Source: a virus
Length of the DNA stretch: 50,623 nucleotides
Reading direction: 5' to 3' (one strand)
Virus record (IMG/VR): IMGVR_UViG_3300032334_001861
Coordinates: 1 to 50,623 of that record
This document shows, piece after piece, positions 3,192 through 46,385 of this stretch. The position numbers and the translations under genes were made by a program. The notes under the pieces were generated by a model, which was not told the origin of the DNA, did not search any database, and saw only the letters and a program-made list of their open reading frames with translations. How positions within the stretch are numbered: position 1 is the stretch's first letter; each line of letters begins with the position of its first letter.

Positions 3192-3256
3192 GATATTCCT
3201 CCGGCTGCTTGTGGCCAGCCCTGCCATTCTACATGCACTTCAGGTGTGCGTACCAT

Positions 3257-4629: not shown

Positions 4630-5073
4630 TTACCACGCCCTACATGACCAATAACGTGCCTTTGTACGGGGGCCCGGATTTTCACAATGATGTCTGGCAC
4701 GGAAACTCTTCCTACGGCCAGGAATACTCTTTTTAATACGCATGTTCTTGTCACCGAAGTTGACTTTCTTGACGTTACCAGTGCCGGGGTCACGAACATA
4801 CACTTTGCTTTTCTTAACATCACCCTGCATGGGTTTACCCAGCGGCACTTTACGGCCATGGTATTCTGCTTCCATGATGCTGAAGCTGTCCAACAGGGCA
4901 CAGAACCGTTGTTCTCCACTGACGATGATGTCACCGGACTCAGTTATCTCCAGGATCTCTGATTCCACTTGCAGGCTATCGCCGAATTCTAAAAAGATAC
5001 CATCACCCACAGCTGGACGATCTTCTGCTATGGCTGTTAGTCTTTCGATAAGTTGTCTCATGTCTGCCATCAT
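4630..5073 (-). CDS. Phage protein with conserved basic Cys/Trp C-terminal motif
   Basis: 147 residues. The first about 80 look like a small alpha/beta domain. The C-terminus holds 'VYVRDPGTGNVKKVNFGD' followed by 'RHHCENPGPRTKARYWSC'. I know this tail as a recurring C-terminal element in proteins of T4-like marine phages, found near structural and assembly genes; the two cysteines, His pair and Trp could bind metal, which is inference. The start (ATGATG) overlaps the upstream stop by 4 nt; M1, M2 and M5 are all possible starts. Confidence 0.8.
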   Translation of the reverse strand: MMADMRQLIERLTAIAEDRPAVGDGIFLEFGDSLQVESEILEITESGDIIVSGEQRFCALLDSFSIMEAEYHGRKVPLGKPMQGDVKKSKVYVRDPGTGNVKKVNFGDKNMRIKKSIPGRRKSFRARHHCENPGPRTKARYWSCRAW

Positions 5074-6404
5074 GCATCTCCCACCATCTTATTGCCGGGC
5101 TTGCCCTTGTCCTTGCCTTTCCAGTAACCTGTGAACTTGGGACCAGTTTTACCGCCTTCGGATACATCGCCTGTTTCTTCGTGTCTTTGATATGCTTTTT
5201 GTGTTTTTAATTCTGAAGTGGCGGCTTGTTTTAGTGCTTTTAATTGCTCATAGTTTGTGTCTTGCACCATTTTACGAAATCTTTCTTGTCGTTCTCGCCA
5301 ATCTGTGGAACCATGCACATCATATTCTCTTTCCAATCTTCTCATCTGAGATAATAGATCTTTGTATCTAGTTTCGGCATTATTAACCTTTCCCAACACA
5401 TTCAAATCTGGTTTTACTTCAGGTCTGGGATCGCTGCGGTCAACTACGATAAAGCCTCTATTAGGACCTAATTTTATCACTTTGCTATTTGGTATTTTTT
5501 CTGACCGTTTCATTGCCAGCTGAATACTAGGAACAGGACGGTCTTTTCTAGCTATGGCTTCATCCACATCTTTTTCTTTGTTCTTAGCAATGGCAATAGC
5601 AGCCTGTTGTGCAGGATTAGCTGCTTCTGTTTTAGCAGTCTTAGCAGCATCTTTCCAGGACTGGCTAGTGGGAGCACCTTTAGTTCCAGGTTTGCGCATG
5701 TGTTCACCGCTGCCGTGCTTGATGCGTTCTCTTTTAGCATGTGTGTTAGCATAAAGTCCTGCCTTCTCTTCTTCCACACCCGGTTGCCCAACTGTAATAG
5801 CCTGTAGCATAGCGTGAGCAACTACACGATCTTTTTCTTTTTCATCTTCGGGTAGTTGAGCATATTGTTGTGTCATTAGTTTTTGACGTTGTGCTATCTT
5901 AGCCTGTAGTTTTTCTGGAGCCATTGTCTTTGAATCATCAAACATTTGTGGATTCTTAACAAATGCTTGAGCTGTTACATTCCAACCTTTGTGGATAGCA
6001 TCGCTAATTGCTTCAACATCAGTAACACCTTTATCAATCATCTGTTTGGCAAATGCCGCAGATTTTAGGTTAGCCTGCCAACCAAATGTATTACCAGGTT
6101 GACTACGCCCATATCCGTAAGCTGAATCTAATGCCGCATCACTAATAGTTGCCAATTGCTCAACACTTAATTGTTTTCCAACATCTTTAGCTTCATTCCA
6201 AGCACTTTTAACACTTATGACTTTGTAGTGTTTCTTTTCACCGTCAACATCCACGGTCCTACCAGCGACTTTACTCTTGGCTTCTGTTGCTGTAAGTGCG
6301 CTGATCTCCATGGTCTTCTCATCGCCTGTCTTGGGATCTATCACTTTGACAGCAAACATGGTGTTGGCGCTTTCTGCAAGCAATACTACTTCATGTATCT
6401 TCAT
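5070..6404 (-). CDS. Large phage protein, probably virion or assembly associated
   Basis: 444 residues, mostly helical, Lys/Ala/Gln-rich, with low-complexity stretches. Residues about 215-260 carry 'GLYANTHAKRERIKHGSG' followed by 'RKPGTKGAPT', a short motif that recurs in T4-like environmental phage proteins. The C-terminus 'YWKGKDKGKPGNKMVGD' is a second such recurring end motif. No catalytic signature is visible. The start ATG overlaps the upstream stop by 4 nt, with GGAG 12 nt upstream. It probably shares the late transcript that begins at the promoter at 7816-7823. Confidence 0.8.
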   Translation of the reverse strand: MKIHEVVLLAESANTMFAVKVIDPKTGDEKTMEISALTATEAKSKVAGRTVDVDGEKKHYKVISVKSAWNEAKDVGKQLSVEQLATISDAALDSAYGYGRSQPGNTFGWQANLKSAAFAKQMIDKGVTDVEAISDAIHKGWNVTAQAFVKNPQMFDDSKTMAPEKLQAKIAQRQKLMTQQYAQLPEDEKEKDRVVAHAMLQAITVGQPGVEEEKAGLYANTHAKRERIKHGSGEHMRKPGTKGAPTSQSWKDAAKTAKTEAANPAQQAAIAIAKNKEKDVDEAIARKDRPVPSIQLAMKRSEKIPNSKVIKLGPNRGFIVVDRSDPRPEVKPDLNVLGKVNNAETRYKDLLSQMRRLEREYDVHGSTDWRERQERFRKMVQDTNYEQLKALKQAATSELKTQKAYQRHEETGDVSEGGKTGPKFTGYWKGKDKGKPGNKMVGDA

Positions 6405-8127: not shown

Positions 8128-8679
8128 CTACCTCGCTGCCTTTGCCAGGTACTTCAACTTTTCGGCTACGCGAGCATAGTCCCTGTCATCATATTTAATA
8201 CCGATGCCACCGGCCATTTGCCAGCCGTTAATGTTGACACCATAATCATCTACCAGTATATTGGGCACACCAGCATTGGTGGCATGTGTGCTCTTATTGT
8301 GTGTCAATATCACACCAGCTGGTGGCATGCTGCTCAGATGCATGCGGATCCAGGCATACTTGCCAGGTTCTGACCTGGGATCGCCTTCTAAAGGCTTGCT
8401 ACAGATGTAATATTCACCAAATAATGATTGTGTCAACCTGACCAGTTCCAGGGCATGTGGCAATGGTGGTAAATCTACCCAGAAGGTGGGATGTTGCCTG
8501 ACCAGGTTCAATTTAGCCACTGGGTTATCGATGTCCTTGTAATGGTCCTTGCCATCCAAACGTGCCCATTGGCCGAAGAAATCGGCTAACACACCATCCA
8601 TATCCAGATATACACGGCCTATCTGGCCGCCGGTGATCACTTCGTCCATACGCATACGATTATTTATCCAGTTTTCCAT
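8128..8679 (-). CDS. HAD-family 5'(3')-deoxyribonucleotidase-like phosphatase
   Basis: 183 residues. HAD motif I is 'VYLDMDGVLADF' (about 23-34) with both aspartates; motif III is near 'NILVDDYGVNINGW' with paired aspartates. The size and motifs fit the small nucleotidases of T4-like phages that remove phosphate from deoxynucleoside monophosphates, probably tuning the nucleotide pool. The start is uncertain. The ATG at 8679 has no ribosome site. A GATAAATA box at 8661-8668 lies inside the N-terminal codons, 11 nt before the ATG of Met11 (8649), so a late transcript would yield the shorter, still complete, enzyme. Confidence 0.8.
   Translation of the reverse strand: MENWINNRMRMDEVITGGQIGRVYLDMDGVLADFFGQWARLDGKDHYKDIDNPVAKLNLVRQHPTFWVDLPPLPHALELVRLTQSLFGEYYICSKPLEGDPRSEPGKYAWIRMHLSSMPPAGVILTHNKSTHATNAGVPNILVDDYGVNINGWQMAGGIGIKYDDRDYARVAEKLKYLAKAAR
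8661..8668 (-). promoter_or_regulatory. Possible T4-type late promoter inside the nucleotidase N-terminus
   Basis: The box GATAAATA is on the minus strand, 11 nt before the internal ATG at 8649. It is a perfect match to the box seen at other late genes here, but the spacing is shorter than the usual 15-20 nt. It may define the true start of the HAD gene. Confidence 0.45.
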
Positions 8680-8698: not shown

Positions 8699-11600
8699 TC
8701 AGGCCTTTGTCAAGCGGCTTCTGGCCCTGGCTAATGCTTCTGCTATGGTCTCACCTGGTTGCATACGATCGAATATCACTTTGTTCTCGTTATAGAACTT
8801 CTTGTCCACTTCCTTCTTGAGATCAGCAATGGCTTCGTCTTCGCTACGACCTTTGCCTACCAGTGTCTTGATAGCACCGTCCACGATGGTCTTGGGTTTT
8901 TTAGGTTTGCCTTTGGCTTCTGATATACTTTCGTTTGAAGGTGTTACTCGTAATGCAGGGCTTCGTGGATGACGACGGTTCCAATCTGCCGTGGCAGCTT
9001 CTGCGCTATCTGCTCTTACCCTGTTGCTGATCTCGCTTGGTGCATCATCGTCGGGGTCTTGATGCATAAACCACACATCCCACATGTTTGCGGCAGCAGG
9101 TTCTTGATCATTCTGCTGTAGATGTCCTTCATCGTCTATATCACCATGCATGTCAGGATTGTATGTCTCCACGTCATATATGGCTAATTGATTGCCGTAG
9201 TTGCGCTGGAAGATAGTCCTAGCCTGCTCTGCTGTTGTAGCAGTTACTGGTGTATGCATGAAGTCGCCCTGACCATCTGAATGTGATACTATCCAGGTAT
9301 TAGTTCTAGCTGACTGTCGAGTTGCTCGTGCAACGGACGAAGTTGGTTCTTTAACAGCATTATCTTTGCGTAATTTATCTAAAGTTTTAGTACCCAATGC
9401 ATGCAGTTGCCATCGCGATATGTTGGCATTTCCGGGTAGGTTTGTTTCAACCCATTTCCATGCATATTTACTTGCTTCTTCCTCGCTAGTAGCGTTGAAC
9501 TGATGTACATATGATTTCTTGCCACCTGGGGGTTGATATTGTATACCATATTGAATCTGGAATATGGGTCCTTGGGTATGCTTTTTAGTCAACACTTTCT
9601 TTAATTTAACAGCATCAACTTTACCCATACTGAAATCTATGAAAGTTTTTAGTTCATCGTTCTTTTCAGTTCCGGTGCTGAGAATCTTGTAGGCTTTTTT
9701 TAGATAGTCTTGTTTGCCTTCAACCGGATCAGCAGCCAATGCATAAGCATGTGTTACACGCAGCACTGTGTAATATATCTGATCCCATTTGGGCATCCAG
9801 TTACCACCGGGACTGCGGAACTCGATATAGTTGCTGTGTGCATTGATGCTCACATACTTGTTATCGTCATGGATATTATCCACTAGTGTGTTGGCTATGT
9901 TGCGCAATCCTGCCCAAGTTTCTTTCCTTAATGCAGCCATAGTGGCATTAATTTCATCATCAGATCTGGTCACATCTGAATCATCACTGCCCCACCATCC
10001 GCCGCTGTCTGTGTTGGGATCCTTGCCAGTGCGTTTCCATTTGAGTGCTTTTTTCAAACGTAACAACATACTCTCGCAATATTCGTTCTTCATACGACCG
10101 AATTCTTTTAGTATGGCCTGATCGCCCACAAGCAACAACAATTTTAACTTGTCTATGTCCTTGGGTTTACTGCCTTTAATACCAACATTCACATGGAAAC
10201 CTGAACTGCTGTTGGTGTAGATCAGTTTACTATCTCTTGCCCATTGGAATGTCTTGTTTAGTGCTTGCATTGCTTCAGGTAGTGGCATGGCATAACTGAT
10301 CAATTCCACTCCACCGTCGCCTTGTTTAGGATCCAAGCTGCCATCGTTGACTAATCCAAAAGCATCCGTGCTAGCACTCTGTCCTACTTTTATTTTATAA
10401 CCTGTGGATTGTGAGAACATGTCTGCCAGCTTATTCCTGGTCAAAACATCCTTTATTGCAAATGGCCACTTCAAACCAAGCATCCGCATCTGTAGCAGGT
10501 CGCTCATGGTGTTTAGCTCGCGATAGTCGTTGCCATATTTCTCAGTGAGATCATTCATGACAGCAATTACTTTTTCTTTACTGTTGGCATCGTTCTGTGT
10601 CCAGAACTGGGTGAAATTTTTCTGACCTCTGGGTAATCTTATGTTTGGCAAGGGCTTGTCATCGCTGCGATCTATGCCACTGGAACTGGTCTGCACCAGT
10701 CCTTTTACCAGCATCTCAGCTTCGAAACCCATGGTGATCTTGGCTGCTGCTTCGCTGCTGAGGAAACGATCCCACACTGCTGGGTTCTGCGTCACTTCTG
10801 CTAGTTCTATGCTCTCTTCGGATACCAATACATCCAAGAACTTAGCTTCAGTCATACCTTCTGAAGGAGTAGCTCTCAGTGCAGGGCTTCGTGGATAACG
10901 GTGATTCCAACTTGCCATGGCAGCTTGTGCGCTGTCTGCTCTTACTCTGTTGCGGATCTCGCTTGGCTCTTCGTCATCTGGATCCTGATGCATGAACCAG
11001 ACATCCCACAAGAGTGATACAGCAGGTTCTTCTGGTTCATCTGTAGCAGTAGGTTCGGCAGCAGAACGAGGACTGTGACCGGTTAGTGCTATCCCACTCA
11101 TTGCCATTCCGGGATACTGCCTACGGAATTGATTTATTGCTTCTGGTTGGCTACGAGCTGCGATGATGATATCGTCTCTAGTGCCACTTTCATCTTGATA
11201 GAAGACCCTATAGCGTTCCATCTGAGGCTGTTGAGCAGCGGCGGAATTCTGCCTAGCTGCGTATATGACCCATTGGGCATAGTATACGCTTCCGCCTGAA
11301 CTGAATGTAGCAAAGGTCTGTCCGTTTCTATCTGACTCTAAGGAGTATGTGTATTCAGGTTGACTCTCGCTCTGATACATACCTGTGCTTACAGCTCCAC
11401 GTGCTGTGGCTGTGAAACTATCAACCTCATCTCCATCTTCATCCATCAATGTCCAGCTTTGTGCTACAGACAACTCACGTGGCAAACGTGACAGTATGTC
11501 CTCGCTATACTCACCTGTGTCGACCACACTGCCAGCTGGCTGTGTGTTGGGTGTGTCCGTTGATGTGGGCTGTGGTAGAGCATTGCGTGTCCTGCCGCGG

Positions 11601-14600
11601 CGTCGTGCCAACTCGGCTGCAAACCGCTCTGCTGTTATCTTACCCATGTTATAATCTACGAATAGCTGCATGCTATCCTGATGATCGCTGCTCATGCCTG
11701 ACAAAAACTTGTATGCTTTCTTCAGGTAATCCTGTTGTCCTTCAGTTGGGCTAGCTGACACAGCATATGCCTGGCTGATCCTCAACACTGTGTCACGGAT
11801 GTTTGCCTGATTGTTCATCCAATCGCCACCTGGGCTGCGGAACTCGATGTATTTCTCTTTGAAGTTCACGCTGACATATTTCTCACCACCATGCGCTCTT
11901 TCCACATAATCGTTGGCTAGATCACGTAATTTTTGCCATGTCTCTATCTTGAGACTAACCAACATACTGTTTCGGGCTTGTTCGCTGGTGCGACGATCAA
12001 AGGTGTTTTCTAATCTATCCAACATGCTTGAGCAAAAATCGTTTGCTTCTCGTCCAAAGTCAGTGAGTATCTTCCTATCACCCAGCAACAACAGCAGCTT
12101 CATCTTGTCCAGTTTGCCGGTATCCAATCCTTTCATGCCCACGTTGACATGGAAGCCAGTGCTGCCATTGGTATACACATACCCTTTGTCATTGGCCCAG
12201 GCAAACATCTTGTCCAGAGCTGCCATAGCTTCAGGCAATGGCATGGCATGGCTTACGAGTTCTTGACCACCGTCGCCACTGCGAGGTCTGATGCTGCCAT
12301 CATACTCGAACACGAACTTGTCATTTGGTTTAGCTTGTGAATGGTACCCGCCATGTAGTTCAACCTGATATCCGGTGCTGTTCTGGAAGTCTCTTTTCAA
12401 CTTGTCACGTGTGAGAGTATCTGAGCTATCACCATACGGCCATTCCAACTCCAACTCGCGATTCAGTTCCAACATGTTGGTCCAGTTGCGATGGCCACCA
12501 CCACGCAGGAATCGTTTCCAATGGGCTGGTGTTACTTCTTCATCTTCAGCATGAGCCCGCATCCAAGTTTCCAGGCGTCTTCTCACCTTATCTAGGCCCA
12601 CACTTACTTCTGATCGGGTGTTAGCACCGTTGGCCAGCCAGAATTCATAATAGCGAGTTTGTCCCTCTTCATCGAAAGGAAACACTGCTTCTGCATCCAC
12701 GCCAGCTGGTATGTTTGGTCGTACACGTGAATTCAGATCCAAGCCTTTGACACACATCTCAGCTTCGAAGCCCATGGTGATCTGGTTAGCCACTTCGCTG
12801 TTTAGGAACTTGCGGAATGCACTAGGGTTCTGTGTGAGCTCTGACAGTTGTTCCTGTTCCACGATGCTCTGGTAGAGGCTGCGTGGTTCAGTGCTTTCAT
12901 TTCGTCCGAAAGGACGAACCTGGTATCCGTCGGGTAATCCATAATTGCTATTCCAGGTCTGGGCAACCTCTTCTGCATGGCTTTGGTTATTGGCACTGAA
13001 GACGCCGTTGTTGTTTATGGTATAGCCATTGTTGAATTCGGGTATATTGCTGCCGTTACGATCAACTATCTGGAATCTCTGGCGTTCTGCAGGCGCTGGC
13101 TGTGGAGTAGGACGCTGTGGCTCTGGTTCTGGCTCCCATGCACCGAAATCGACATCAGAGAGGTCATCATTCTGCGACTGCTGATTTGGCTGTTGATTAG
13201 CCACGACCACCGTGTAATTGTCTGGATCGGACCTGGTAGCTCTTGCCCATCTCTCTAGCGTAGCCTGTGCTATATTAGCATCCTGTGCCAGGAACTGGTG
13301 GACTTCGAAATCATCCGCACGCCTTAATACTTTATAGAGTTTCCAGTTGACAGTAACTAACTTCTGATCATCAGCTCTTATTAATTCATAATCCCATCCG
13401 CCGCGATTGGATCTCTGCAGCCATGCTCTATAGACCTCCATTGCCGCAGGATCGTTTTTAGCAGTAAGGGTATCATATACCTGGCCAGTGTCTCTCTTGC
13501 GGATCACATACTTGATCTCAGAGTCTGCTTTACCATCTCTGGTGTTTTGTAGTTGTTTGACCAGGCTCTTCAACGCGGTCTTTGTTATCTGGCCAGCAGC
13601 ATACTGAGCAAAATATTGCACAGTATCTGGTGATTCATCTCTTATGTGCTTGCTCAACACCTTGTACAGTTTCTTGGCATATTCCTGCTGAGCTTCTTCA
13701 GGGCTAGCAGCCAGTCCCAGCACACGCACATAGCGCAACATGGTGTTGACTATCAGATCCTTCTGTTCGAAGAAGTTGCCCCCACCGCTGCGTATCTCGA
13801 TGTAATTTTCCTTGTAGTTGACGCTGACATAACGGTCGCCAGCGGGCAGCAGACGGCGTTTCATCATCTTTGCTGCTTCTGAGTTCAGGCCACTGCGGAA
13901 TTCTTCCAATGCCGGTTTTGGATCGTAGTTGCCAGATCGTATTCTCTTGCGTATCACTGCCATGCTGCTCTTGCACCACTGGCTGGCTTCACGACCAAAG
14001 TCTGCCAACACCTTCTCGTCGCCCAGGAACAGGATGAACTTCATCACATCCACTGTGTCGCGAGTGTGTTGCGGTACGCTGACACCCATGTGGAAGCCAC
14101 AGCTGGCATTGGCTTCAGCACCGATGCTGCCAGCCCACTTGTAGAATTTCTGCAACATGTCCATGGTTTCTGGCAATGGCATGAAGGCACTGGCAAATTC
14201 CACACCTGCATAGCTGTCAGGCAGATCCAATCTCTTGATGCTGCTGTCAGGTTTGAATATGCTGGTGGTGTCGTCAGGGCTAGTGCTGTAGCTGCCACTA
14301 TCACTGGCATATCCGCTGTATTTGCTGAAATCTTTGGCGATGCTATCCATGCTGCGGTCACCGCGTGATCTGCTGCTGCTCACCTGGGTCATGTGAGGCC
14401 AATCCAGATTGAACCTGTTGGCAAATCCTGACATACGGCTTAGGCTGTTGCCATCTGCCCAATCGATGAAATTCTGATCGTCTCTCATGAAATCCGTGGT
14501 CCAATCATCGCGAACGTTATCTTCTGCCCTGTTGTATAGATCCATATAATCTTCACGATCCATGATCTGTTCATCAGTGAGATCTGTTGCATCGGCATTA

Positions 14601-17600
14601 TCTTCACGTATGCGATCCATGATGGCCTTTATGCCTTCATCACTTTCCAGATAATCTTTTAGCTCATCGTCCACATGTTCCTGATACTGTTCATCCATCT
14701 GTTCGATGGCACGTTCTATATCGCGGCGGCTGTGCATGTTGTGGTCAGCATCACGCCAGAAATTTTCTACCTGCCTGCGCCAACTACGATCAAAACGAAT
14801 GCGTTCATCTGCATCATAGTCTGGCTCATATTCGTCATCATAATCGTAATCGTCATCGTCTTGGCTGTCCAGGTCAGGAACCAGCATCTCTGCTTCGAAT
14901 CCCACACGGATGCTCTTGCCCAGGTCTGACTTGGCAAAATCAGCCAGCGCACCAGGGCCCATGTTGACTTCAGCTAACAGGCTTTCTGCCAGGCTCTCTG
15001 ACTGTTGACCTTCTGGATGAGGCTCCACGCTTACGATTGTGTAGGTCCTGGGATGTTGAGCAATGAAGGTCTGGGAGGCATCATTGACGCTGTTGGCATC
15101 ATATGCGGTCTGATGTTGTGCGCCTGAGGTATCCAGGTATGTGATGATAAATGTGCCAGCTTGTGTGGCTGCTGGATTAGGTTGTGGTGCCGCTGCTGGC
15201 TGATCTGCTGGAAGGGCCCTATAGTATTCTCTAAATGGTTCAGCTATCTGATTAGCTGTCATGAACTTGGTCACAGCATCTTCAGGGCTGTTAGCGATCT
15301 GTGTATGTGTGCTTGGAGAAGATAGAGCAGGCGGATTGCCGTTAAGGGCAGTGACGATTTTATATTTCTGACTGCCTGCTGATGTAGCCTGCTGTGTCGC
15401 AGCGTTCTTCTCTGCCTCTGCTTTATCCTGTGCTGCCTGTGCTGCCGCTATCTGTTCCTTGGTGTGCCATCTGGATTTGACAAAACTAGTCAGATCATCC
15501 AGATCCAATCCACCAGTCACATCTCGGGCTGTCAGTAATGCCACAGGCAACCCCAATAGGGATGAAGCGGTATCTGCTGCTTCAGCACCATTTGCTGCCA
15601 GCACGATCACTCCTGCTCTCTTTAGATGGTCCCAACCGCCGTCTGCTGGACCGATTCCTTTCTCAGTATCTACCCTGAAAATCTTCTCGCCAGGTTCAGT
15701 GACCAATTGGTAATAATAGCTGGGCGGAGCGTTAACATCGTTATTATTTCTTGCTTGTTGCTGAGCCTGGGGAATAGCAGCCATCAGGGTGGGAGCGATG
15801 ATCTCTATGTCCGGACCAGTATACCTGTGTCCTGGTTTGATCTTGAACACATACACATTGCCTGAGGGCTGGTACTTGGGTTTCTGCCCACGAGCTACTG
15901 CTGCTTTGCCCAGCTTGAACTTGAGTATATCTTTATCGATCTTGCCATCAGCATAATCTCTCAATGCTCTGAGACCAGGCTCGTCTGACTTTACCTTGGC
16001 CACCATCTTGTACAGCTTCTTGGCATATTCTTGCCTGTCAGCTGCTGGATCTGAAGCCAATATGATGCTACGAGCATACTGTAGTGCTGCCATCCTGACT
16101 TTTTCAATCTGGCCCAGTGCATTGCCACCTGCGCTGCGGAATTCCACATAAGTGAACTCTGGTGAATCTTCCTCGCTGCCACCGCCCTTGGGATGTATGC
16201 TGGTATATTTGCCACGGCTCATGTATTTCATGGCTTCACGTTTGGCATCAGGAGTCAATCCGGTCCTGATGGCATCGATGATCAGGTCGCTGTTGATGTC
16301 TCCACCTTTGGCAGTGGCGTCACGGATGTGCTTGAGTGCGCTCTTGGCCCAATTATTGTTACCACCAGCCCAACGATCGAAGTCACGTAACACGCGGTCA
16401 TCGCCGCCCATGAGGATCATCTTGACCCAATCCACATTTTGCATGTCCATCTTGGGCAAGCTGAAGCTCATGTGGAAGCCAGTGTCTCCGTCTGACCCAG
16501 TCCAGGCACGATGGCTCTTGGCCCAGGCAAATACTTTGTTCAGGTATTCCATGCTGCGCTTGTAGGGCATGGGAGGAGTGGTCAGTTCCACACCACCTTC
16601 ACCTTGGTCCTGTGGGCTCAAGCTGCCGTCTGGTTCGAAATACCAGGTGTCCATCCGCTTGTTCTTATGTGGACTATCGATAGCTTCCACCCTGTAACCA
16701 TCCTGGGTCAACATGTCGCCGAACTCACTCTGGAACATGTTCTTGAGGTCTTCGCGAGTGAGCTCGCCCTTGTCACTGCTGCCATAATTTTCAGATTCAG
16801 TCCATACGGGCCAGTTTAGATCACTGTTAGTGTTCTGCATGAAATCATACATGGTACTGGTGCCCACCTCATCACTGAGATAGTCTGCCAACATGTCGTC
16901 TTGGTTATCGTTGACCCAATCTTCCTTTGCTTCTTCCTTGGCAGTTGCTTCGTCCTTGCCAGGTTCTATGCGATCTGCTACTTCCCTGCGGACGTCATCG
17001 TCTTCGTCGTTGTATAACTCGTCCCATTTATCCATGAGATGGTTGTGATAGTCTTCGATGAAGCCGTCTAACACGCTCCTGACATCTCTGGTGCTGTTGT
17101 GTTCGCCCACGAAGAAGTTTGATATATCGCGGCGGAAACTGCCTACGCTGTCGGAATCGATGCTTTCATCAGCTTCGAAATCTGGTTCGCTCTCGGTATC
17201 GTAGTCCTCGTCTTGTTCACGGCCGTCATCATGATCAGGCCAGATCATCTCCAATTCCCAACCCATGTTCACCGTGTCCAGGCGTGGGTCGCTGGCAAAG
17301 TTACGCACCGATTTCAGATTGACTTCGTCCAGTTGTAGTTCTTCACCGATGAAGGGAGTATAATAATCAAAAGGATTCACAGCAACAGCACGATCGCCCA
17401 ACTGTGTGGTGGGACTGGTCACACCCTGATCTTCGTTCTCCACTTTTTTCAATAGTGTGTAATAGTTTAGTTTTTCACTGAGATGATCCAGAGCGATCTC
17501 TCGAGCTGCATCCACGTCTGATGTGTGTTCCATCTCTGTTTTGATGCCCCTGGCCAATTCCAGGTTCACCTGTGTGGTGGTCACTTTATACTTTGCTGCC

Positions 17601-18406
17601 AGTTCTTTCACAGTGGGTGTGGGTCTATCTAACAATTTGCTTTCACTAGCCTTCTTCTTGCCTGCTTTCATGTTGGCCATCCAATGTGCCAGTTGGCCCT
17701 TGCGCCCGCCCTGTTTGGCCACCTTACGCAGGGTGCTCACACTTGCTTTGGTGGGCACACCATGGCGCTTGGCATCGCCTTTGTCTTCAGGATGGCGTCC
17801 GTCCTTGAAATTCTCTTCCATGTTTTCACCAAGACCCATGCCAGCACGTACTGCCTGCATCAGTGTCTTGCCATCCACTATTATATTGCCACTCACTTGG
17901 GTGGCACGTTCGAAAGCTTCAGCATCATTGTTCCTGGCTGCTTCACGTGCATTGGTAGCACTGGTAAGCCTAGGTGATTCCTGGAATGTCAATTGGTCAA
18001 ACTTGTACATGCCATGGCTCTTGCCTTGCACACCGTTGTAATCTTCCAACAGTTTGCGCATCTGTGGCATGTCATCTTCGCCAGCTACGAATGTGGCTGT
18101 GCGGTATCCTTTGCCATACAAATAAGCAGCAGCCTGTAACACTGTGCGGATCTCTGGGTCAGGTACCAGATGCCCTTTGACCTGTGGATACAATGTGCTG
18201 ATCCACTTGAGCTTGTCTGGATAACTGAGAGGATTCTTATTGTTGTCATGGCTCTTGCTGACGAATATGAACCAGGCACCACTCTTGGCGCTGGTTTGCA
18301 CTGTCTGCATCAGTCCCTGATGGCCAAAATGGGGAGGGTTAAGCCTGCCAAAGCAGAAGCTCACGTGCTGCAAATGTTGATCTGTATTACTGATTGTTTC
18401 TGGCAT
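8699..18406 (-). CDS. Giant multidomain protein: nucleotidyltransferase, DUF5661-like segment and four amidoligase-like modules
   Basis: 3235 residues, the largest gene here. Residues 15-190 form a NadM/cytidylyltransferase-like domain: 'FGRLNPPHFGH' (19-29, H26-G28-H29) and 'SATNAREAA' (149-157). Residues 200-252 hold a basic phage motif ('QLAHWMANMKAGKKK'). Residues 265-322 resemble DUF5661 ('EMEHTSDVDAAREIALDHL'). Four modules then start near residues 382, 1169, 1879 and 2557. Each carries G-x-E-x-E, a 'D.S(I/L)...G.E' strand, a 'TGFH'-type His (645, 1437, 2085, 2739) and an 'EFRS.GG' Arg (756, 1537, 2189, 2863), the layout of Amidoligase_2 (glutamine-synthetase-like COOH-NH2 ligases). The linkers carry repeated small domains. 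The frame is intact. A GATAAATA promoter lies 15 nt before the ATG. Substrate unknown. Confidence 0.85.
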   Translation of the reverse strand: MPETISNTDQHLQHVSFCFGRLNPPHFGHQGLMQTVQTSAKSGAWFIFVSKSHDNNKNPLSYPDKLKWISTLYPQVKGHLVPDPEIRTVLQAAAYLYGKGYRTATFVAGEDDMPQMRKLLEDYNGVQGKSHGMYKFDQLTFQESPRLTSATNAREAARNNDAEAFERATQVSGNIIVDGKTLMQAVRAGMGLGENMEENFKDGRHPEDKGDAKRHGVPTKASVSTLRKVAKQGGRKGQLAHWMANMKAGKKKASESKLLDRPTPTVKELAAKYKVTTTQVNLELARGIKTEMEHTSDVDAAREIALDHLSEKLNYYTLLKKVENEDQGVTSPTTQLGDRAVAVNPFDYYTPFIGEELQLDEVNLKSVRNFASDPRLDTVNMGWELEMIWPDHDDGREQDEDYDTESEPDFEADESIDSDSVGSFRRDISNFFVGEHNSTRDVRSVLDGFIEDYHNHLMDKWDELYNDEDDDVRREVADRIEPGKDEATAKEEAKEDWVNDNQDDMLADYLSDEVGTSTMYDFMQNTNSDLNWPVWTESENYGSSDKGELTREDLKNMFQSEFGDMLTQDGYRVEAIDSPHKNKRMDTWYFEPDGSLSPQDQGEGGVELTTPPMPYKRSMEYLNKVFAWAKSHRAWTGSDGDTGFHMSFSLPKMDMQNVDWVKMILMGGDDRVLRDFDRWAGGNNNWAKSALKHIRDATAKGGDINSDLIIDAIRTGLTPDAKREAMKYMSRGKYTSIHPKGGGSEEDSPEFTYVEFRSAGGNALGQIEKVRMAALQYARSIILASDPAADRQEYAKKLYKMVAKVKSDEPGLRALRDYADGKIDKDILKFKLGKAAVARGQKPKYQPSGNVYVFKIKPGHRYTGPDIEIIAPTLMAAIPQAQQQARNNNDVNAPPSYYYQLVTEPGEKIFRVDTEKGIGPADGGWDHLKRAGVIVLAANGAEAADTASSLLGLPVALLTARDVTGGLDLDDLTSFVKSRWHTKEQIAAAQAAQDKAEAEKNAATQQATSAGSQKYKIVTALNGNPPALSSPSTHTQIANSPEDAVTKFMTANQIAEPFREYYRALPADQPAAAPQPNPAATQAGTFIITYLDTSGAQHQTAYDANSVNDASQTFIAQHPRTYTIVSVEPHPEGQQSESLAESLLAEVNMGPGALADFAKSDLGKSIRVGFEAEMLVPDLDSQDDDDYDYDDEYEPDYDADERIRFDRSWRRQVENFWRDADHNMHSRRDIERAIEQMDEQYQEHVDDELKDYLESDEGIKAIMDRIREDNADATDLTDEQIMDREDYMDLYNRAEDNVRDDWTTDFMRDDQNFIDWADGNSLSRMSGFANRFNLDWPHMTQVSSSRSRGDRSMDSIAKDFSKYSGYASDSGSYSTSPDDTTSIFKPDSSIKRLDLPDSYAGVEFASAFMPLPETMDMLQKFYKWAGSIGAEANASCGFHMGVSVPQHTRDTVDVMKFILFLGDEKVLADFGREASQWCKSSMAVIRKRIRSGNYDPKPALEEFRSGLNSEAAKMMKRRLLPAGDRYVSVNYKENYIEIRSGGGNFFEQKDLIVNTMLRYVRVLGLAASPEEAQQEYAKKLYKVLSKHIRDESPDTVQYFAQYAAGQITKTALKSLVKQLQNTRDGKADSEIKYVIRKRDTGQVYDTLTAKNDPAAMEVYRAWLQRSNRGGWDYELIRADDQKLVTVNWKLYKVLRRADDFEVHQFLAQDANIAQATLERWARATRSDPDNYTVVVANQQPNQQSQNDDLSDVDFGAWEPEPEPQRPTPQPAPAERQRFQIVDRNGSNIPEFNNGYTINNNGVFSANNQSHAEEVAQTWNSNYGLPDGYQVRPFGRNESTEPRSLYQSIVEQEQLSELTQNPSAFRKFLNSEVANQITMGFEAEMCVKGLDLNSRVRPNIPAGVDAEAVFPFDEEGQTRYYEFWLANGANTRSEVSVGLDKVRRRLETWMRAHAEDEEVTPAHWKRFLRGGGHRNWTNMLELNRELELEWPYGDSSDTLTRDKLKRDFQNSTGYQVELHGGYHSQAKPNDKFVFEYDGSIRPRSGDGGQELVSHAMPLPEAMAALDKMFAWANDKGYVYTNGSTGFHVNVGMKGLDTGKLDKMKLLLLLGDRKILTDFGREANDFCSSMLDRLENTFDRRTSEQARNSMLVSLKIETWQKLRDLANDYVERAHGGEKYVSVNFKEKYIEFRSPGGDWMNNQANIRDTVLRISQAYAVSASPTEGQQDYLKKAYKFLSGMSSDHQDSMQLFVDYNMGKITAERFAAELARRRGRTRNALPQPTSTDTPNTQPAGSVVDTGEYSEDILSRLPRELSVAQSWTLMDEDGDEVDSFTATARGAVSTGMYQSESQPEYTYSLESDRNGQTFATFSSGGSVYYAQWVIYAARQNSAAAQQPQMERYRVFYQDESGTRDDIIIAARSQPEAINQFRRQYPGMAMSGIALTGHSPRSAAEPTATDEPEEPAVSLLWDVWFMHQDPDDEEPSEIRNRVRADSAQAAMASWNHRYPRSPALRATPSEGMTEAKFLDVLVSEESIELAEVTQNPAVWDRFLSSEAAAKITMGFEAEMLVKGLVQTSSSGIDRSDDKPLPNIRLPRGQKNFTQFWTQNDANSKEKVIAVMNDLTEKYGNDYRELNTMSDLLQMRMLGLKWPFAIKDVLTRNKLADMFSQSTGYKIKVGQSASTDAFGLVNDGSLDPKQGDGGVELISYAMPLPEAMQALNKTFQWARDSKLIYTNSSSGFHVNVGIKGSKPKDIDKLKLLLLVGDQAILKEFGRMKNEYCESMLLRLKKALKWKRTGKDPNTDSGGWWGSDDSDVTRSDDEINATMAALRKETWAGLRNIANTLVDNIHDDNKYVSINAHSNYIEFRSPGGNWMPKWDQIYYTVLRVTHAYALAADPVEGKQDYLKKAYKILSTGTEKNDELKTFIDFSMGKVDAVKLKKVLTKKHTQGPIFQIQYGIQYQPPGGKKSYVHQFNATSEEEASKYAWKWVETNLPGNANISRWQLHALGTKTLDKLRKDNAVKEPTSSVARATRQSARTNTWIVSHSDGQGDFMHTPVTATTAEQARTIFQRNYGNQLAIYDVETYNPDMHGDIDDEGHLQQNDQEPAAANMWDVWFMHQDPDDDAPSEISNRVRADSAEAATADWNRRHPRSPALRVTPSNESISEAKGKPKKPKTIVDGAIKTLVGKGRSEDEAIADLKKEVDKKFYNENKVIFDRMQPGETIAEALARARSRLTKA
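8940..9085 (-). repeat. Direct repeat copy A inside the giant gene ('DVWFMHQDPDD' linker)
   Basis: It encodes a segment starting 'WDVWFMHQDPDDDAPSEI' and ending 'SPALRVTPS'. The nucleotide sequence is clearly similar to 10855-11010, so this is a duplicated linker unit, not just protein-level convergence. It lies after module 4, near the C-terminus. Confidence 0.8.
10855..11010 (-). repeat. Direct repeat copy B inside the giant gene ('DVWFMHQDPDD' linker)
   Basis: It encodes 'WDVWFMHQDPDDEEPSEI' through 'SPALRATPS', between modules 3 and 4. It is about 1.9 kb from copy A, which equals one module length, as expected from tandem duplication of a module plus its linker. Confidence 0.8.
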
Positions 18407-18421
18407 GACGGTTTCCAGAAC

Positions 18422-18429
18422 TATTTATC
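18422..18429 (-). promoter_or_regulatory. T4-type late promoter (GATAAATA) for the giant gene
   Basis: Minus-strand CTGATAAATA ends 15 nt before the ATG at 18406. A weak GGAAA ribosome site lies between. This implies that the amidoligase protein is made late, with the virion. Confidence 0.75.
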
Positions 18430-18858: not shown

Positions 18859-18866
18859 TATTTATC
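18859..18866 (-). promoter_or_regulatory. T4-type late promoter (GATAAATA)
   Basis: CTGATAAATA on the minus strand lies 19 nt before the ATG at 18839. It overlaps the last codon of the upstream ligase-like gene. Confidence 0.75.
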
Positions 18867-19998
18867 AGTGCGGTGCCCAGCGATGCCTGGGAACCAGTTT
18901 GACGTTGCCTTCGGGATTATACAACACGTATCCTTCACCACCAGGCTGTCCACCTGTGCTCTGTTGTACATCACCTTGTTGCTGATCCAGCTGTGTTATG
19001 ATCTGATCTTTCAATTGCCTGATACCTTCCAGTATGGCAAATACAGCAGCATAACCTTTGGGGTTGCTGGCCATCCAGTTAGTGATCTTCTGCTGCATGG
19101 GAACGCTTTCGCCGGAACCTGCCAGCCATTGTGGAAACTTTGCAGCTAACCCAGTGGTGACACCTGCTCTCACCTGTTGGTTATTAAACTTGTACAACAC
19201 GTTCTTGAAATTACTCATCTTGTTCACGCCCAACGTATCGTCGCTGAGGAACCGATCTATGTCAGCAGCATGCGCCTGTGTGAGTGCAGCTATCTGCTTC
19301 AATCCAGCAGTATTGACCTGCATCTTCTGTGGTTGCACATGTTTGGGACCCATGACAATCAAACCAGCATTTTGATTGAATTTGTCAAAATCATCTATGG
19401 GTTGTTGTGTGCGGTCTGGTAATCCAAAATCACTGAAGTAAGCATGCCCCACTACTGCGGCAGTGCTGCCAGCGATACGTTTGCCCAGATCGCTATTGGC
19501 ATCCACGCTATAGGTGACCTGGTTGGGAGTGAATATGAATTTGCCATTGGCAACGGCCGGCCTACGCATGTACAACAGATCACCATACACATAACCTCGG
19601 AAATTTGCTGGTGTGGCTGCTTCAAACAGAGACCATAGGCTGGCAAATTCTGTGGCAAACTGTTGTCTTTCACGTACTTGATCATCAGTGGTGGCCTTGC
19701 CAGTGTTCATGATGAACTTGGCCAGATCTGCTGGTTTGGTGGTCTTGCCTGTGCCATCTGGCTTGAGCCAGCCGTTATGCCCGGTCATTATGAATGTGCC
19801 ATCAGGTTCACGCCCCCAGTATACCTGGGGTTTACCATCCCATTTCCATCTGACAGCCTGTGGTTGCCTCATGACGTCTTGCAATCTTTGCAAGCTCTGC
19901 GTGGCACCGGCACTGCCATGGAACAGCACTAGGTCTTCCAGATGATTGAAAGGGCGACCTGTGGCCGCCGCTTCAGTGATGATGTTACTGATAAGCAT
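18865..19998 (-). CDS. Covalent nucleotidyltransferase (DNA/RNA ligase-like) protein, DUF6267-like
   Basis: 377 residues. The opening 'FNHLEDLVLFHGSAG' and the following 'WKWDGKPQVYWG' match a phage family I know as DUF6267. K52-W-D54-G55 reads as the KxDG nucleotidyl-lysine motif of ligases and capping enzymes. 'GYVYGDLLYM' sits where motif III is expected. The C-terminal 'EGYVLYNPEGNVKLV' (E355, K367) matches motifs IV (EGxV) and V (KxV). The core fold of an ATP-dependent ligase is thus plausible; an OB domain is not evident. The nucleic-acid or other substrate is unknown. The start at 19998 has no obvious ribosome site. Confidence 0.65.
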   Translation of the reverse strand: MLISNIITEAAATGRPFNHLEDLVLFHGSAGATQSLQRLQDVMRQPQAVRWKWDGKPQVYWGREPDGTFIMTGHNGWLKPDGTGKTTKPADLAKFIMNTGKATTDDQVRERQQFATEFASLWSLFEAATPANFRGYVYGDLLYMRRPAVANGKFIFTPNQVTYSVDANSDLGKRIAGSTAAVVGHAYFSDFGLPDRTQQPIDDFDKFNQNAGLIVMGPKHVQPQKMQVNTAGLKQIAALTQAHAADIDRFLSDDTLGVNKMSNFKNVLYKFNNQQVRAGVTTGLAAKFPQWLAGSGESVPMQQKITNWMASNPKGYAAVFAILEGIRQLKDQIITQLDQQQGDVQQSTGGQPGGEGYVLYNPEGNVKLVPRHRWAPH

Positions 19999-21807: not shown

Positions 21808-24054
21808 TCAGGCTGGGGTTGGAGGAACTGTTAATGATTTGTCAGTGATCAGATTCTGTATCTCAATCTCTAACCGATCATCCATTGCGACTACTATTAT
21901 ACTAACATGGCCTGCAGGCCTGTCAAACAATAATTTCTTAGCTAGTGGCACCTTGATGTTCTCGTGTATGCAACGGCCCATGGGGCGAGCACCCATGTTG
22001 CTGCTGTATCCTTTATTACACAACCAATCCAGTGCATTTTCGGTTACAGTGATGGAAGCATCTTGCAGGCTCAGCTGTTGGTTCAATTCTTTCAGGAACT
22101 TTTCAGCGATCTGCCTGATGCTGATCTTGTTCAGCTTATTGAATGTGACAATAGCATCCACACGGTTGCGGAATTCTGGTCTAAAGAACTCTTTCACAGC
22201 TTCATCTGCTGCATCTGTGCGTTCCTGGTCGCCGAATCCGATGCGAAGTTTCTCGCTGTTTTCTGCACCCAAGTTGCTGGTCATGATCAGTACAGCCTGG
22301 CGACAATCTGCTCGTTTGCCATTGCTGCCTGTGATGAATCCTTCATCCATGATCTGCAATAACACCTGTGCCACATCAGGATGGGCTTTCTCGATCTCAT
22401 CCATGAGTATGACACAGTGTGGATTCTTGCTGACTTCGCTGATCAGAAGACCACCTGCCAGGTTGGCATCTTCATATCCCACATATCCTGGAGGGGCACC
22501 GATCAACCTGCTGATGCTGTGTTTCTCCTGGTATTCACTCATGTCGAACCTGAGTAGATTCATCTGCATCTGTGTGGCCAGTTGTTTGGCTAGTTCGGTT
22601 TTACCAGTACCTGTGGGACCCAGGAACAGGAAACTGCCCACTGGTTTGTTGTCCAATTTCAGTCCAGCTTGGCTGACCCAGATACGATCCAACACCTGCT
22701 CCACAGCCGTGTCCTGGTTGTAGACTTTTTCTCTGATGTTCTTGCTGAGGTCTGGCAACGAGCTTTTCTTTTTCTCTGTGCCCAGCTGTTCTTCAGGTAT
22801 GTTAGTGATGCGGCTGAGTTCACGACGTATGTTCTTGACATCGATGGTCCTGCTACCACGGCTGCGGCTGCGTCTCAGAGCACATGCCGAATCCAATAGG
22901 TCGATGGCTTTATCTGGTAATTTCTTGTCGCTCTGGTATCTGATGCTGAGGTCTACTGCTGCTGCCACGGCCTGATCTGTGATCTGCACATTATGGAATG
23001 CCTGGTAGCTGTCACGTATGCCCATGAGTATCTGTTTGGCCACTTCTGCACTGGGCTCGTCTATGGTCACACGATTGAAGCGGCGCATGAGTGCGCGGTC
23101 TTTCTCAAAATGCTGCGTATATTCTTCCCAGGTGGTGCTGGCAATCACTTTGAAATCACTGCGAGCCAATGCTGGTTTGATCATGTTGCTGAAATCTACT
23201 GGGCTCTGCCCACCACCGCCGGCTCCACGCATCTGGTGTGCTTCGTCGATGAACAGGATCACATTTCCCATCTCTGTGGCAGCATTGATGATATCCTGCA
23301 AGCGTTCTTCGAACTCTCCGCGATACTTTGTGCCTGCCAGCAATGCACCCACATTGATGCTGTAGATCTTGTGGTCTCTGATGAACTTGGGAACCTGGTT
23401 CTGTTCCATCTTGACAGCTAGTCCTTCCACTATAGCTGTTTTACCCACGCCTGCATCGCCCACCATCAACACATTGCTCTTGCTCTTACGAGCCAAGATC
23501 TGGATCATATCGTCCAGTTCGGTCTCACGTCCTATGACTGGCTCTAGTTTTTTATGTTCAGCAAGCGTATTCAGGCAAGTACAATATTCTTCTAACACTT
23601 TTTCAGCCATGTTGATACTGGGCACAAGGCTTTTATTTTGTTGGCTCTGCACCATCGCTTCCTTTTCCACGCCGTATTTTTTCAATAACCATGCAGCATG
23701 GCTTTGTGCTTCGTTGCAGATGCTGAGATATAGATCCAATAGGGTGATCTGGCTACGTCCATGGAAGAGGACCTGTGTGAATGCACGATTGAACACCCGT
23801 TCCAGAGCATGGGTTTTCTTGGGTTCTTTGCCGTCCACTGTGGGAGTGTTTTCCAACAAGTAATGCTGGCATTCTGTGGCCATGTCATGGACCTGGATGC
23901 CATTCTTATCCAATTTGTTGGCAAAGTTTTTCTCCAGTAACATGCTGTATAACAGATGTTCCACTGTGAAATACTCATGCTGGTTACTAGTAGCCAGTTG
24001 CCTGGCGTATTTCACGACTTTTTCTATGTCGCCGTTGCTGTTGTATGTGCTCAT
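21808..24054 (-). CDS. clpA: ClpA-type AAA+ unfoldase
   Basis: 748 residues with a Clp N-domain (1-140, 'EYFTVEHLLYSMLL'), AAA-1 (Walker A 'GDAGVGKT' about 200; Walker B 'VILFIDEAH') and AAA-2 (Walker A 'GPTGTGKT' about 481; Walker B 'VILMDEIEKAH'). There is no ClpB-type coiled-coil middle domain, so it is ClpA-like. 'LRIGFGDQ' (about 602-609) sits where ClpA/ClpX carry the IGL/IGF loop that docks on ClpP, so the protein can plausibly use host ClpP. Its length matches ClpA (758). It lies just downstream of the dnaJ-like gene, with its own sigma70 promoter 6 nt before the ATG. No Shine-Dalgarno sequence is present. Confidence 0.95.
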   Translation of the reverse strand: MSTYNSNGDIEKVVKYARQLATSNQHEYFTVEHLLYSMLLEKNFANKLDKNGIQVHDMATECQHYLLENTPTVDGKEPKKTHALERVFNRAFTQVLFHGRSQITLLDLYLSICNEAQSHAAWLLKKYGVEKEAMVQSQQNKSLVPSINMAEKVLEEYCTCLNTLAEHKKLEPVIGRETELDDMIQILARKSKSNVLMVGDAGVGKTAIVEGLAVKMEQNQVPKFIRDHKIYSINVGALLAGTKYRGEFEERLQDIINAATEMGNVILFIDEAHQMRGAGGGGQSPVDFSNMIKPALARSDFKVIASTTWEEYTQHFEKDRALMRRFNRVTIDEPSAEVAKQILMGIRDSYQAFHNVQITDQAVAAAVDLSIRYQSDKKLPDKAIDLLDSACALRRSRSRGSRTIDVKNIRRELSRITNIPEEQLGTEKKKSSLPDLSKNIREKVYNQDTAVEQVLDRIWVSQAGLKLDNKPVGSFLFLGPTGTGKTELAKQLATQMQMNLLRFDMSEYQEKHSISRLIGAPPGYVGYEDANLAGGLLISEVSKNPHCVILMDEIEKAHPDVAQVLLQIMDEGFITGSNGKRADCRQAVLIMTSNLGAENSEKLRIGFGDQERTDAADEAVKEFFRPEFRNRVDAIVTFNKLNKISIRQIAEKFLKELNQQLSLQDASITVTENALDWLCNKGYSSNMGARPMGRCIHENIKVPLAKKLLFDRPAGHVSIIVVAMDDRLEIEIQNLITDKSLTVPPTPA

Positions 24055-24060
24055 GTTCTC

Positions 24061-24088
24061 ACTATAGCATAATAGTCAGGATTGTCAA
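24061..24088 (-). promoter_or_regulatory. sigma70 promoter abutting the clpA start codon
   Basis: Minus strand: a perfect TTGACA (24083-24088), 16 nt spacer, and an extended -10 TGC-TATAGT (24061-24066). Only 6 nt separate the -10 box from the ATG at 24054, so the transcript would start at or within 1-2 nt of the start codon, predicting a leaderless mRNA. Confidence 0.7.
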
Positions 24089-24090
24089 TA

Positions 24091-24948
24091 CTATGTATTT
24101 ACTGGCCTGATGCGTTGGATCTGTCTGACTAATTCCAGTTGATCTGAGGTCAATGCAGTGGGTATCAGCACCGATATACGCAGGACATATTTGCCCAGCA
24201 TGCCATTGTTCCTGGGAAAACCTTCGTCTGTCACTGCGAATTGTGCACCGTGTTGTGTGCCTGGTGGTATACTGAGATCGATCTGTTTACCACGTGGGGT
24301 ATCCAGCCTGACCACATGGCCTGCTATGGCCTGGAAGCAATCGATGGTCAGGTCTTCCAATATGTTTTCAGCATGTTTCTGGAACCTGGCATGTGATCTC
24401 ACTTTAATGAAGATCTCCAGGTTACCACGTGGTATGTTGGGATGGCTATTATCTCCACGACCATTCACTGTGAACATGCTACCATGTTCCACACCTGCCG
24501 GAATGTCTATCTGGAGGGTTTCGGGTCCCTGGCTAGTGTTATACTGCAACACTTTATTGCAAGTATTGAGTGTCTCCAGGAAGTCCAATTCCAGTTCTAT
24601 CCTGAGGTTACGGTTACGAGCCTGCTGACGCATATTGAAACCAAATTGCTGGAATATATGATCAGCCATGGGATCGCCACCGCCACCCATGTTGAAATGG
24701 AACTGGAAAGGGTTGCCTGCCTGATTTCCAAACGGATTGAAGCCTGGTCCAGGACCGTTCATCTGTGCATCGTATTGTGCGCGGCTCTGGGGGTCTCTGA
24801 GGTTATTATAAGCCTCATTGATCTCTTTGAATTTGGCTTGGTCGCCACCACGATCTGGATGATGCTCACCGGCCAACTTCCGGAAAGCTGCTTTGATTTC
24901 ATCAGCACTTGCTTGCTGGTTTACGCCTAGAGTATCATAATGTGTCAT
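24091..24948 (-). CDS. DnaJ/CbpA-type co-chaperone
   Basis: 285 residues. The J-domain (1-65) has the HPD tripeptide at 30-32 that activates DnaK. A Gly/Phe/Asn-rich region follows (70-110), then two C-terminal substrate-binding domains ('IDIPAGVEHGSMFTVNGRGD', 'LSIPPGTQHGAQFAVTDEG'). There is no Cys-rich zinc finger, so it is CbpA-like (type II). It should work with host DnaK, and the adjacent ClpA suggests a phage protein-quality-control module. The start has no ribosome site but has a strong sigma70 promoter 7 nt upstream. Confidence 0.95.
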   Translation of the reverse strand: MTHYDTLGVNQQASADEIKAAFRKLAGEHHPDRGGDQAKFKEINEAYNNLRDPQSRAQYDAQMNGPGPGFNPFGNQAGNPFQFHFNMGGGGDPMADHIFQQFGFNMRQQARNRNLRIELELDFLETLNTCNKVLQYNTSQGPETLQIDIPAGVEHGSMFTVNGRGDNSHPNIPRGNLEIFIKVRSHARFQKHAENILEDLTIDCFQAIAGHVVRLDTPRGKQIDLSIPPGTQHGAQFAVTDEGFPRNNGMLGKYVLRISVLIPTALTSDQLELVRQIQRIRPVNT

Positions 24949-27488: not shown

Positions 27489-28223
27489 ATGCAAAAACGT
27501 AAACATCGTAAAGAACACGCTTACAGCCATAATGTAACTAACATGGAATCTTATCTCCAAAATCCCACCAAAAAGAAAAAAGTAGAAATCATACCCAGGA
27601 ACCTCAATCAGGAGCGTTACCTGGACCTTCTTTTAGACCATTCATGCAGCATCATCATCGCAACAGGACCTGCCGGAACAGGCAAGACTCTGTTGGCCAT
27701 GCAAGCTGCCATACAGGCTCTCAAAGCAGGACATATGGGAAAGATAGTGGTGACCAGACCAGCAGTGGGCGTGGAAAACGAAAAACACGGATTCTTGCCA
27801 GGAGATCTTACTCGTAAGATGGAACCCTGGGTTAAACCGCTATTTGATGTGTTGCATGAATATTACACCCCCAGAGATACCGCCAGCATGCTAGAGAACG
27901 AAGTCATAGAGATATGTCCGCTAGCCTTCATGAGGGGGCGTACATTCAAGAACAGCCTTATCATTGCAGATGAGATGCAGAATGCCACACCTAATCAGAT
28001 GAAGATGTTGCTGACCCGTATAGGTGAAGGCAGCCGTATCATCGTGACAGGAGATATCAGGCAGACAGATCGCAAGGAAGGTGACAATGGATTACTGGAT
28101 TTCAATAATCTGGTCAATCATTTCCGTGGCAGCGAGCATGTGGGTGTGATAGAATTCACAGGTGGCGATATCGAACGCCATCCAGCTGTGGAAGAAGTGT
28201 TGCGTATCTACGGAGATATCTGA
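27489..28223 (+). CDS. phoH: PhoH-like P-loop ATPase
   Basis: 244 residues and the only plus-strand gene. Walker A 'ATGPAGTGKT' (about 58-67), Walker B 'SLIIADEMQNA' and 'IIVTGDIRQTD' are typical of PhoH, a helicase-like NTPase family widespread in phages; its role in infection is unsettled. The start has a strong GGAGG 6 nt upstream and a hairpin just before it. It is divergent from a late gene and convergent with the 107-residue gene, whose stop is 6 nt from its own. The reversed orientation suggests separate timing. Confidence 0.97.
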   Translation: MQKRKHRKEHAYSHNVTNMESYLQNPTKKKKVEIIPRNLNQERYLDLLLDHSCSIIIATGPAGTGKTLLAMQAAIQALKAGHMGKIVVTRPAVGVENEKHGFLPGDLTRKMEPWVKPLFDVLHEYYTPRDTASMLENEVIEICPLAFMRGRTFKNSLIIADEMQNATPNQMKMLLTRIGEGSRIIVTGDIRQTDRKEGDNGLLDFNNLVNHFRGSEHVGVIEFTGGDIERHPAVEEVLRIYGDI

Positions 28224-46188: not shown

Positions 46189-46193
46189 GCTGA

Positions 46194-46385
46194 TTAATCC
46201 CTGGTCATGCTGGTAACTTCGCGGACGATGAGGATCACTTCGTCCAGAGTGGCACAGATGATCTTGGCATTCTTCCATTCATCTTCTGAATCGCGGCCAC
46301 CCACTTCCACCATGTAGCCGTTGTCATACATGTTGATGGTGAAACTTTCATTCACTTTGGTCAGTTTGTCTGAGACTTTAGTCAT
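46194..46385 (-). CDS. Small conserved-looking phage protein
   Basis: 63 residues. 'VNESFTINMYDNGYMVEVGG' then 'DEWKNAKIICATLDEVILIV' suggests a beta hairpin followed by a helix. I associate this pattern with small proteins of T4-like environmental phages; function unknown. AAAGGA lies 6 nt before the ATG. It follows tRNA-Arg and precedes the cyclophilin gene by 5 nt, so all three are probably read from the sigma70 promoter at 46493-46521. Confidence 0.8.
   Translation of the reverse strand: MTKVSDKLTKVNESFTINMYDNGYMVEVGGRDSEDEWKNAKIICATLDEVILIVREVTSMTRD

Follow-up and report, generated by a model that had tools for sequence, protein, structure and literature searches.

Does a phage protein that joins four amidoligase modules in a single chain work as one enzyme, or is it the precursor of several? 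The question is raised by a 3235-residue open reading frame (ORF) of the virus record IMGVR_UViG_3300032334_001861, a metagenomic fragment from IMG/VR whose full linear extent of 50,623 bases is referred to here as the window. The source is taken to be a T4-superfamily jumbo phage because the DNA polymerase of the fragment is nearest to those of Sinorhizobium phage Phosso (50%) and Agrobacterium phage Atu_ph07 (46%); a nearest-DNA search among phages gave no match. A preliminary description had presented the protein as one multi-active-site machine. This was not borne out: conserved T4-type head-protease sites were found 5' of every module instead, and these suggest that cleavage frees several separate enzymes. 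We consider it likely that the ORF encodes an enzyme-cargo polyprotein, whose chain is packed into the prohead, divided there by the head protease acting in trans, and delivered to the host as separate injected enzymes.

The single intact frame with four modules, placed in the preliminary description near residues 382, 1169, 1879 and 2557, stands, the GxExE motifs lying at residues 382, 1169, 1879 and 2560; the plus strand of 8699-18406 holds many stops. In BLASTP comparisons the modules, termed A to D, match one another at 27-41% identity, with E values down to 1e-95. Their assignment to Amidoligase_2 was likewise upheld, as the whole protein scored 69.3 bits against PF12224 (cut-off 22; E 6e-19); searched singly, two of the four modules exceeded the cut-off and a third reached 19.4 bits. 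Alignment of the modules confirmed the G-x-E-x-E motif, the His of GFH and the Arg motif in all four, and GxExE, DxS, GxE, GFH, K, R, E-[FI]-R and Y..K are kept throughout modules A, B, C and D. Besides the Glu of the predicted cleavage site, 13 residues are invariant in an alignment of 62 module sequences (G51, E53, E55, D208, E221, G256, H258, K275, R291, R362, G365, Y399 and K402), and modules A-D possess every one of them. With the glutamine synthetase (GS)/glutamate-cysteine ligase (GCL) fold that had been proposed for the modules there is a weak resemblance. Module C was modelled together with its upstream linker using AlphaFold2 (mean predicted local distance difference test score, 83; predicted template modelling score, 0.72), and the top 50 Foldseek matches of this one model in the PDB were all GS-type enzymes (for example 4s17), albeit weak ones (best E 1.3e-3; template modelling score about 0.28). 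Neither the whole protein nor the module profile found a convincing match among PDB sequences. In a viral library the nearest matches were phage amidoligases, including the Atu_ph07 protein. GS-like chemistry is, on this model, likely though unproved.

An [L/I]-x-E motif precedes each of the four modules. In 49 of the 51 distinct modules a search by pattern, independent of any aligner, placed it 18-26 residues (usually 22) 5' of GxExE, with V/I/L-x-M-S-P following. Its Glu, the predicted P1 residue, is invariant in all 62 aligned modules and the full motif is kept in 60 of them, against a background within modules of 1.1% per position; when the rows were thinned to less than 50% identity, it was retained in 24 of 26. 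We infer cutting at this place because the Glu is as invariant as the active-site residues. A second [L/I]-x-E lies at most nine residues away in 44 of the 62. Ten Amidoligase_2 proteins of LUZ24-like and other non-T4-type phages carry no such motif at the corresponding place, and this Glu is therefore no inherent feature of the family. ORF-initial modules are preceded by just 10-20 residues, such as MRLFDIINE/DQLDE/, MRYTEFKPLLNE/, MKNNKDLILEEILNE/ and, in Atu_ph07, MRWQDISSKKLTE/ (slashes mark predicted cuts), and stand-alone relatives start with MRLFDIINE/, MRYTEFKPLLNE/ or MRALDFILE/. These starts resemble MKTYQEFIAE/A, that is, the capsid-targeting peptide MKTYQEFIAE of T4 internal protein III (IPIII), which is cut before A. 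The internal boundaries carry tandem sites like those at the stand-alone starts. In T4, an Asp substituted for the Glu prevents processing. The T4 protease gp21 recognizes L/I-X-E and cuts behind the Glu; for targeting, a stretch of ten IPIII residues is enough, in which positions 4 and 7 matter for targeting and positions 8 and 10 for processing (PMC9026906). The cuts in T4 Alt lie at ITE-6 and LTE-619 (PMC5694885).

It is doubtful that the whole chain acts as one multi-active-site ligase, for example in cross-linking virion or host proteins. The protease-type site in a disordered linker before each module argues against such a ligase, for which the unbroken frame and the full set of conserved residues in all four modules can be adduced, and so does the occurrence of these units in relatives as genes of their own. 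In IMG/VR, a scan with the module profile returned at least 476 stretches encoding it, the best 80 of which were retrieved. Among the relatives inspected, an ORF usually contains one or two modules and the four seen here are the maximum; a literature search, with subscription titles outside its scope, found neither a four-amidoligase chain, in line with the preliminary description, nor cargo polyproteins cut in trans by a head protease. Stand-alone amidoligase units measure 699-827 aa, and the four predicted amidoligase products are close to them in size. Two-module and one-module ORFs can adjoin (L006, L020 and L066), and a syntenic orthologue in a 338-kb contig (L038; 2845 aa) has the same nucleotidyltransferase with two modules. 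In other ORFs the module is fused with nucleotidyltransferase, NT5C, GNAT-like, NTP_transf_2, DUF5661, LysM or SLT domains. In a quick tree C and D are sisters, while A and B cluster with modules of other phages, and the units have therefore been shuffled, independently of one another, and duplicated. Since no relative was found in a plasmid search and a scan of bacterial genomes gave one partial match, in a Burkholderiaceae metagenome-assembled genome, the modules form a viral subfamily. As a side observation, the polyprotein of L072 (5418-10283) ends, after its amidoligase unit, in LysM and an SLT transglycosylase, an arrangement that would suit cell-wall entry.

An alternative of another kind, which we regard as improbable, is that [L/I]xE-V-x-M-S-P is a structural or functional segment of the subfamily, such as an N-terminal cap, and that its likeness to gp21 sites and to the targeting peptide is coincidental. 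Conservation does extend past the Glu (M31 and P33), with a possible role in the fold; in the model of module C, however, residues 1-25 are disordered, the site occupies 26-28 and the fold begins at about residue 30, so that the site sits at the junction of linker and fold, outside the confident fold. Against a cap there is also the frequent duplication of the site five residues upstream (in the 44 modules of 62 given above), and a like N-terminal pattern is shared by unrelated proteins of these phages and by virion enzymes of cyanophage S-CREM2. Within residues 2-19, [L/I]-x-E is present in 249 of 828 distinct genes of the retrieved loci, against 108-139 in later segments, and when other residues replaced the Glu there was at most a small N-terminal excess. 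Genes starting with M[RK] had the N-terminal motif in 127 of 261 cases versus 34 of 261 in a later segment, and a stricter pattern built from the T4 functional positions gave 41 versus 3-14. By mass spectrometry, the S-CREM2 virion contains a nucleotidyltransferase homologue (MKNFSSFLTE/A), a SAM (S-adenosylmethionine) hydrolase (MKDFDSFLEE), a kinase (MKRFDAFLTE) and a Cas9-like nuclease (FASFMAE/A) (PMC10665884). That the frame is an artefact of assembly or annotation has a negligible chance, for although the record is a metagenomic fragment, the best DNA repeat (170 nt at 81%) and the modules themselves are far too diverged for mis-assembly, which we rejected, and the two-module L038 is a syntenic orthologue.

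Each of the seven relative contigs larger than 300 kb encodes a protease of the S77 (gp21) family, as do a 191-kb contig and Atu_ph07 (gp204); of the 16 relatives tested, 10 have one. Together with the N-terminal enrichment and the S-CREM2 virion nucleotidyltransferase, this supports the virion link put forward earlier. In S-CREM2 the Cas9-annotated virion nuclease (ORF12; L103 7704-10313) has its T4-like FASFMAE/A after about 20 residues, which suggests that it is packaged and not a contaminant. The major capsid protein and an adjacent protein of Atu_ph07 (L016 8734-9963 and 7476-8720) also begin with [L/I]xE-type segments (MSKLFES...ALLE/G and METGFEKLLE/G), as is expected of S77 substrates.

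According to the cargo-polyprotein reading, the ORF would be expressed late by a T4-superfamily jumbo phage and its product would join the prohead core, where an S77 (gp21-type) head-maturation protease would cut after the Glu of the [L/I]-x-E 5' of each module. The predicted products are residues 1-361 (40 kDa; nucleotidyltransferase-DUF5661), 362-1146 (87 kDa), 1147-1856 (82 kDa), 1857-2537 (77 kDa) and 2538-3223 (77 kDa), the last having possibly lost a 12-residue C-terminal peptide; a second possible C-terminal site is ISE/A at E3163. As with Alt and the internal proteins of T4, the released enzymes would remain in the capsid until they are injected together with the DNA. Each amidoligase unit may have the GS/GCL fold and use ATP to join carboxylates to amines, with host proteins or small molecules as the likeliest targets, early in infection. 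The results speak neither for nor against the virion cross-linking and peptidoglycan modification suggested in the preliminary description.

Several observations weigh against this reading. Across the linkers, [L/I]-x-E occurs 11 times against 7.2 expected, only slightly above composition; what is conserved is its position. The N-terminus of the protein itself (MPETISNTDQ...) is without an [L/I]-x-E targeting peptide; such a tag is present in L038 (MMTIINSTLKE/A), in L005 and in the stand-alone relatives. No S77 protease gene was found in the 50.6-kb fragment. Presence in virions is known for homologues of the nucleotidyltransferase part only (PMC10665884), and the authors of that proteome warn of possible contamination (PMC10665884). 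In S-CREM2, generic tags were carried by 9 of 28 non-structural or unknown virion proteins versus 22 of 167 undetected ones, a modest difference (p=0.02, uncorrected), and by 5 of 24 structural proteins. As to the late promoter of the preliminary description, the octamer GATAAATA does precede the ATG, but among tagged genes T4-late-like promoters show no enrichment (p=0.53).

Capsid-targeted cargo, trimming by head proteases and polyvalent injected proteins are all already known. The T4 head cargo (IPI-III and Alt) has in common with the present protein the L/I-X-E motif, and has N-terminal peptides similar to those of the stand-alone relatives (PMC9026906, PMC5694885); shared too are the protease family, found in relative genomes, and the enzymatic nature of cargo, Alt being an ADP-ribosyltransferase. 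It differs in that T4 makes one protein per gene, cut near the ends, whereas the present chain links several enzymes and has a site ahead of every amidoligase unit. The polyvalent proteins of phages and conjugative elements are large and multidomain, and the authors who described them, in whose view they are packaged and injected, liken them to polyproteins (Iyer et al. 2017, PMC5512222). The present protein likewise is a multidomain chain of more than 2000 aa from an invading element; however, polyvalent proteins are freed by embedded peptidase domains (PMC5512222), while for this one the cutting in trans would fall to the head protease. Neither their hub domains (MPTase, ArdC-N and MuF) nor an embedded peptidase was found in it by Pfam or PHROG matches, and amidoligase is not mentioned in the polyvalent-protein survey (PMC5512222). 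The only isolate homologue found was gp196 of Atu_ph07 (AUZ94978.1; 500 aa), which begins MRWQDISSKKLTE/LKMNSS and lies two genes from the portal gene, in a genome with S77, and inside a cluster (CDS 170-215) singled out for its many virion proteins (PMC6102473); unlike the window protein, it is a single, unfused module. LUZ24 gp18 and other podoviral Amidoligase_2 proteins share the Pfam family and catalytic motifs but are encoded away from the virion genes, next to a COOH-NH2 ligase and a RimK-like gene, and lack the boundary motif.

On balance we lean towards a more general proposal, namely that T4-superfamily jumbo phages encode true injected-enzyme polyproteins, in which units with capsid-targeting/[L/I]xE peptides follow one another in a single chain that is packed whole and then divided in trans by the head-maturation protease, that fusion couples the dosage and timing of takeover enzymes to capsid maturation, and that the [L/I]xE tag allows the injected cargo of uncultured phages to be read. 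If true, (i) a dsDNA phage would deliver a set of enzymes by means of a polyprotein, a strategy familiar chiefly from RNA viruses, and would have its capsid protease do the processing, (ii) hundreds of unannotated giant phage proteins would become predicted separable effectors with exact N-termini, and (iii) a sequence tag would be at hand for finding injected proteins. The copies of the amidoligase suggest that amide ligation of host targets may be an early takeover activity. The features of the locus are compiled in the table.

Table. Features of the predicted cargo polyprotein and its surroundings in the window, in the direction of transcription of the polyprotein gene (slashes mark predicted cuts).
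Feature	Residues or detail	Coordinates	Strand	Basis or remark
Upstream neighbour, DUF6267/phrog_455	377 aa; capsid-targeting-like N-terminus MLISNIITE/A	18865..19998	minus	
T4-late-promoter-like GATAAATA	15 nt 5' of ATG	18422..18429	minus	same place in orthologue L038
Predicted cargo polyprotein ORF, intact	3235 aa; ATG start, no internal stop	8699..18406	minus	
HIGH-superfamily nucleotidyltransferase ('cytidyltransferase')	3-198	17813..18400	minus	phrog match
Small 'KRHGVPTKASVSTLRK' domain	205-260	17627..17794	minus	
DUF5661 (PF18905)	267-324	17435..17608	minus	Pfam match
Predicted head-protease site A, LDE/V	P1 = E361	17324..17332	minus	motif
Amidoligase module A	362-876	15779..17323	minus	
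SAEEA-type repeat 1	1085-1130	15017..15154	minus	
Predicted tandem head-protease sites B, LAE/SLLAE/V	E1141, E1146	14969..14992	minus	
Amidoligase module B	1147-1649	13460..14968	minus	
Predicted tandem head-protease sites C, IVE/QEQLSE/L	E1850, E1856	12839..12865	minus	
Amidoligase module C	1857-2295	11522..12838	minus	
SAEEA-type repeats 2 and 3	2398-2440 and 2469-2515	10862..11215	minus	
Predicted head-protease site D, LAE/V	E2537	10796..10804	minus	
Amidoligase module D	2538-2975	9482..10795	minus	
SAEEA-type repeats 4-6	2952-3157	8936..9553	minus	
Possible C-terminal site IAE/A	E3223, 12 residues from end	8738..8746	minus	analogy with T4 Alt C-terminal LTE cut
Downstream NT5C-like deoxyribonucleotidase		8128..8679	minus	
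Gene of unknown function	444 aa; tag-like N-terminus MKIHEVVLLAE/S	5070..6404	minus	

The HFGH nucleotidyltransferase recognized at the N-terminus in the preliminary description was recovered as a match to phrog_3041 and phrog_395 'cytidyltransferase' (E 3e-35 and 9e-26), and is 70% identical to the N-terminus of the L038 polyprotein. The 'KRHGVPTKASVSTLRK' domain is found elsewhere as a free-standing 63-aa ORF (L007) and in fused form (L004). The six 'SAEEA' repeats, of about 45 residues each, lie between and after the modules; like DUF5661 and the [L/I]-x-E motif, they had no place in the preliminary description. With respect to the neighbours, the orthologue of the DUF6267 gene upstream of the L038 polyprotein begins MFINQILTE/A, and the NT5C-like deoxyribonucleotidase is, in L005, fused to the C-terminus of the polyprotein.

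Some other genes of the window deserve mention. A class A penicillin-binding protein (48890-50581, minus strand; Transglycosylase E 2.5e-46, Transpeptidase E 1.1e-30, phrog_33002) lies near the contig end, the N-terminal part of its transglycosylase domain being missing. At 43197-45077 (minus), a sugar-nucleotidyltransferase-like domain is fused with phosphoheptose isomerase-like and polynucleotide kinase-like stretches, and at 21808-24948 (minus) a ClpA/ClpB-like AAA protein adjoins a full DnaJ (J domain and C-terminal domain), forming a phage chaperone/disaggregase pair. There are also genes for an iron-sulphur carrier (Fe-S_biosyn; 39150-39476, minus) and a cyclophilin-type prolyl isomerase (45730-46278, minus), and a PhoH-like gene (27489-28223) stands alone on the plus strand among minus-strand genes.
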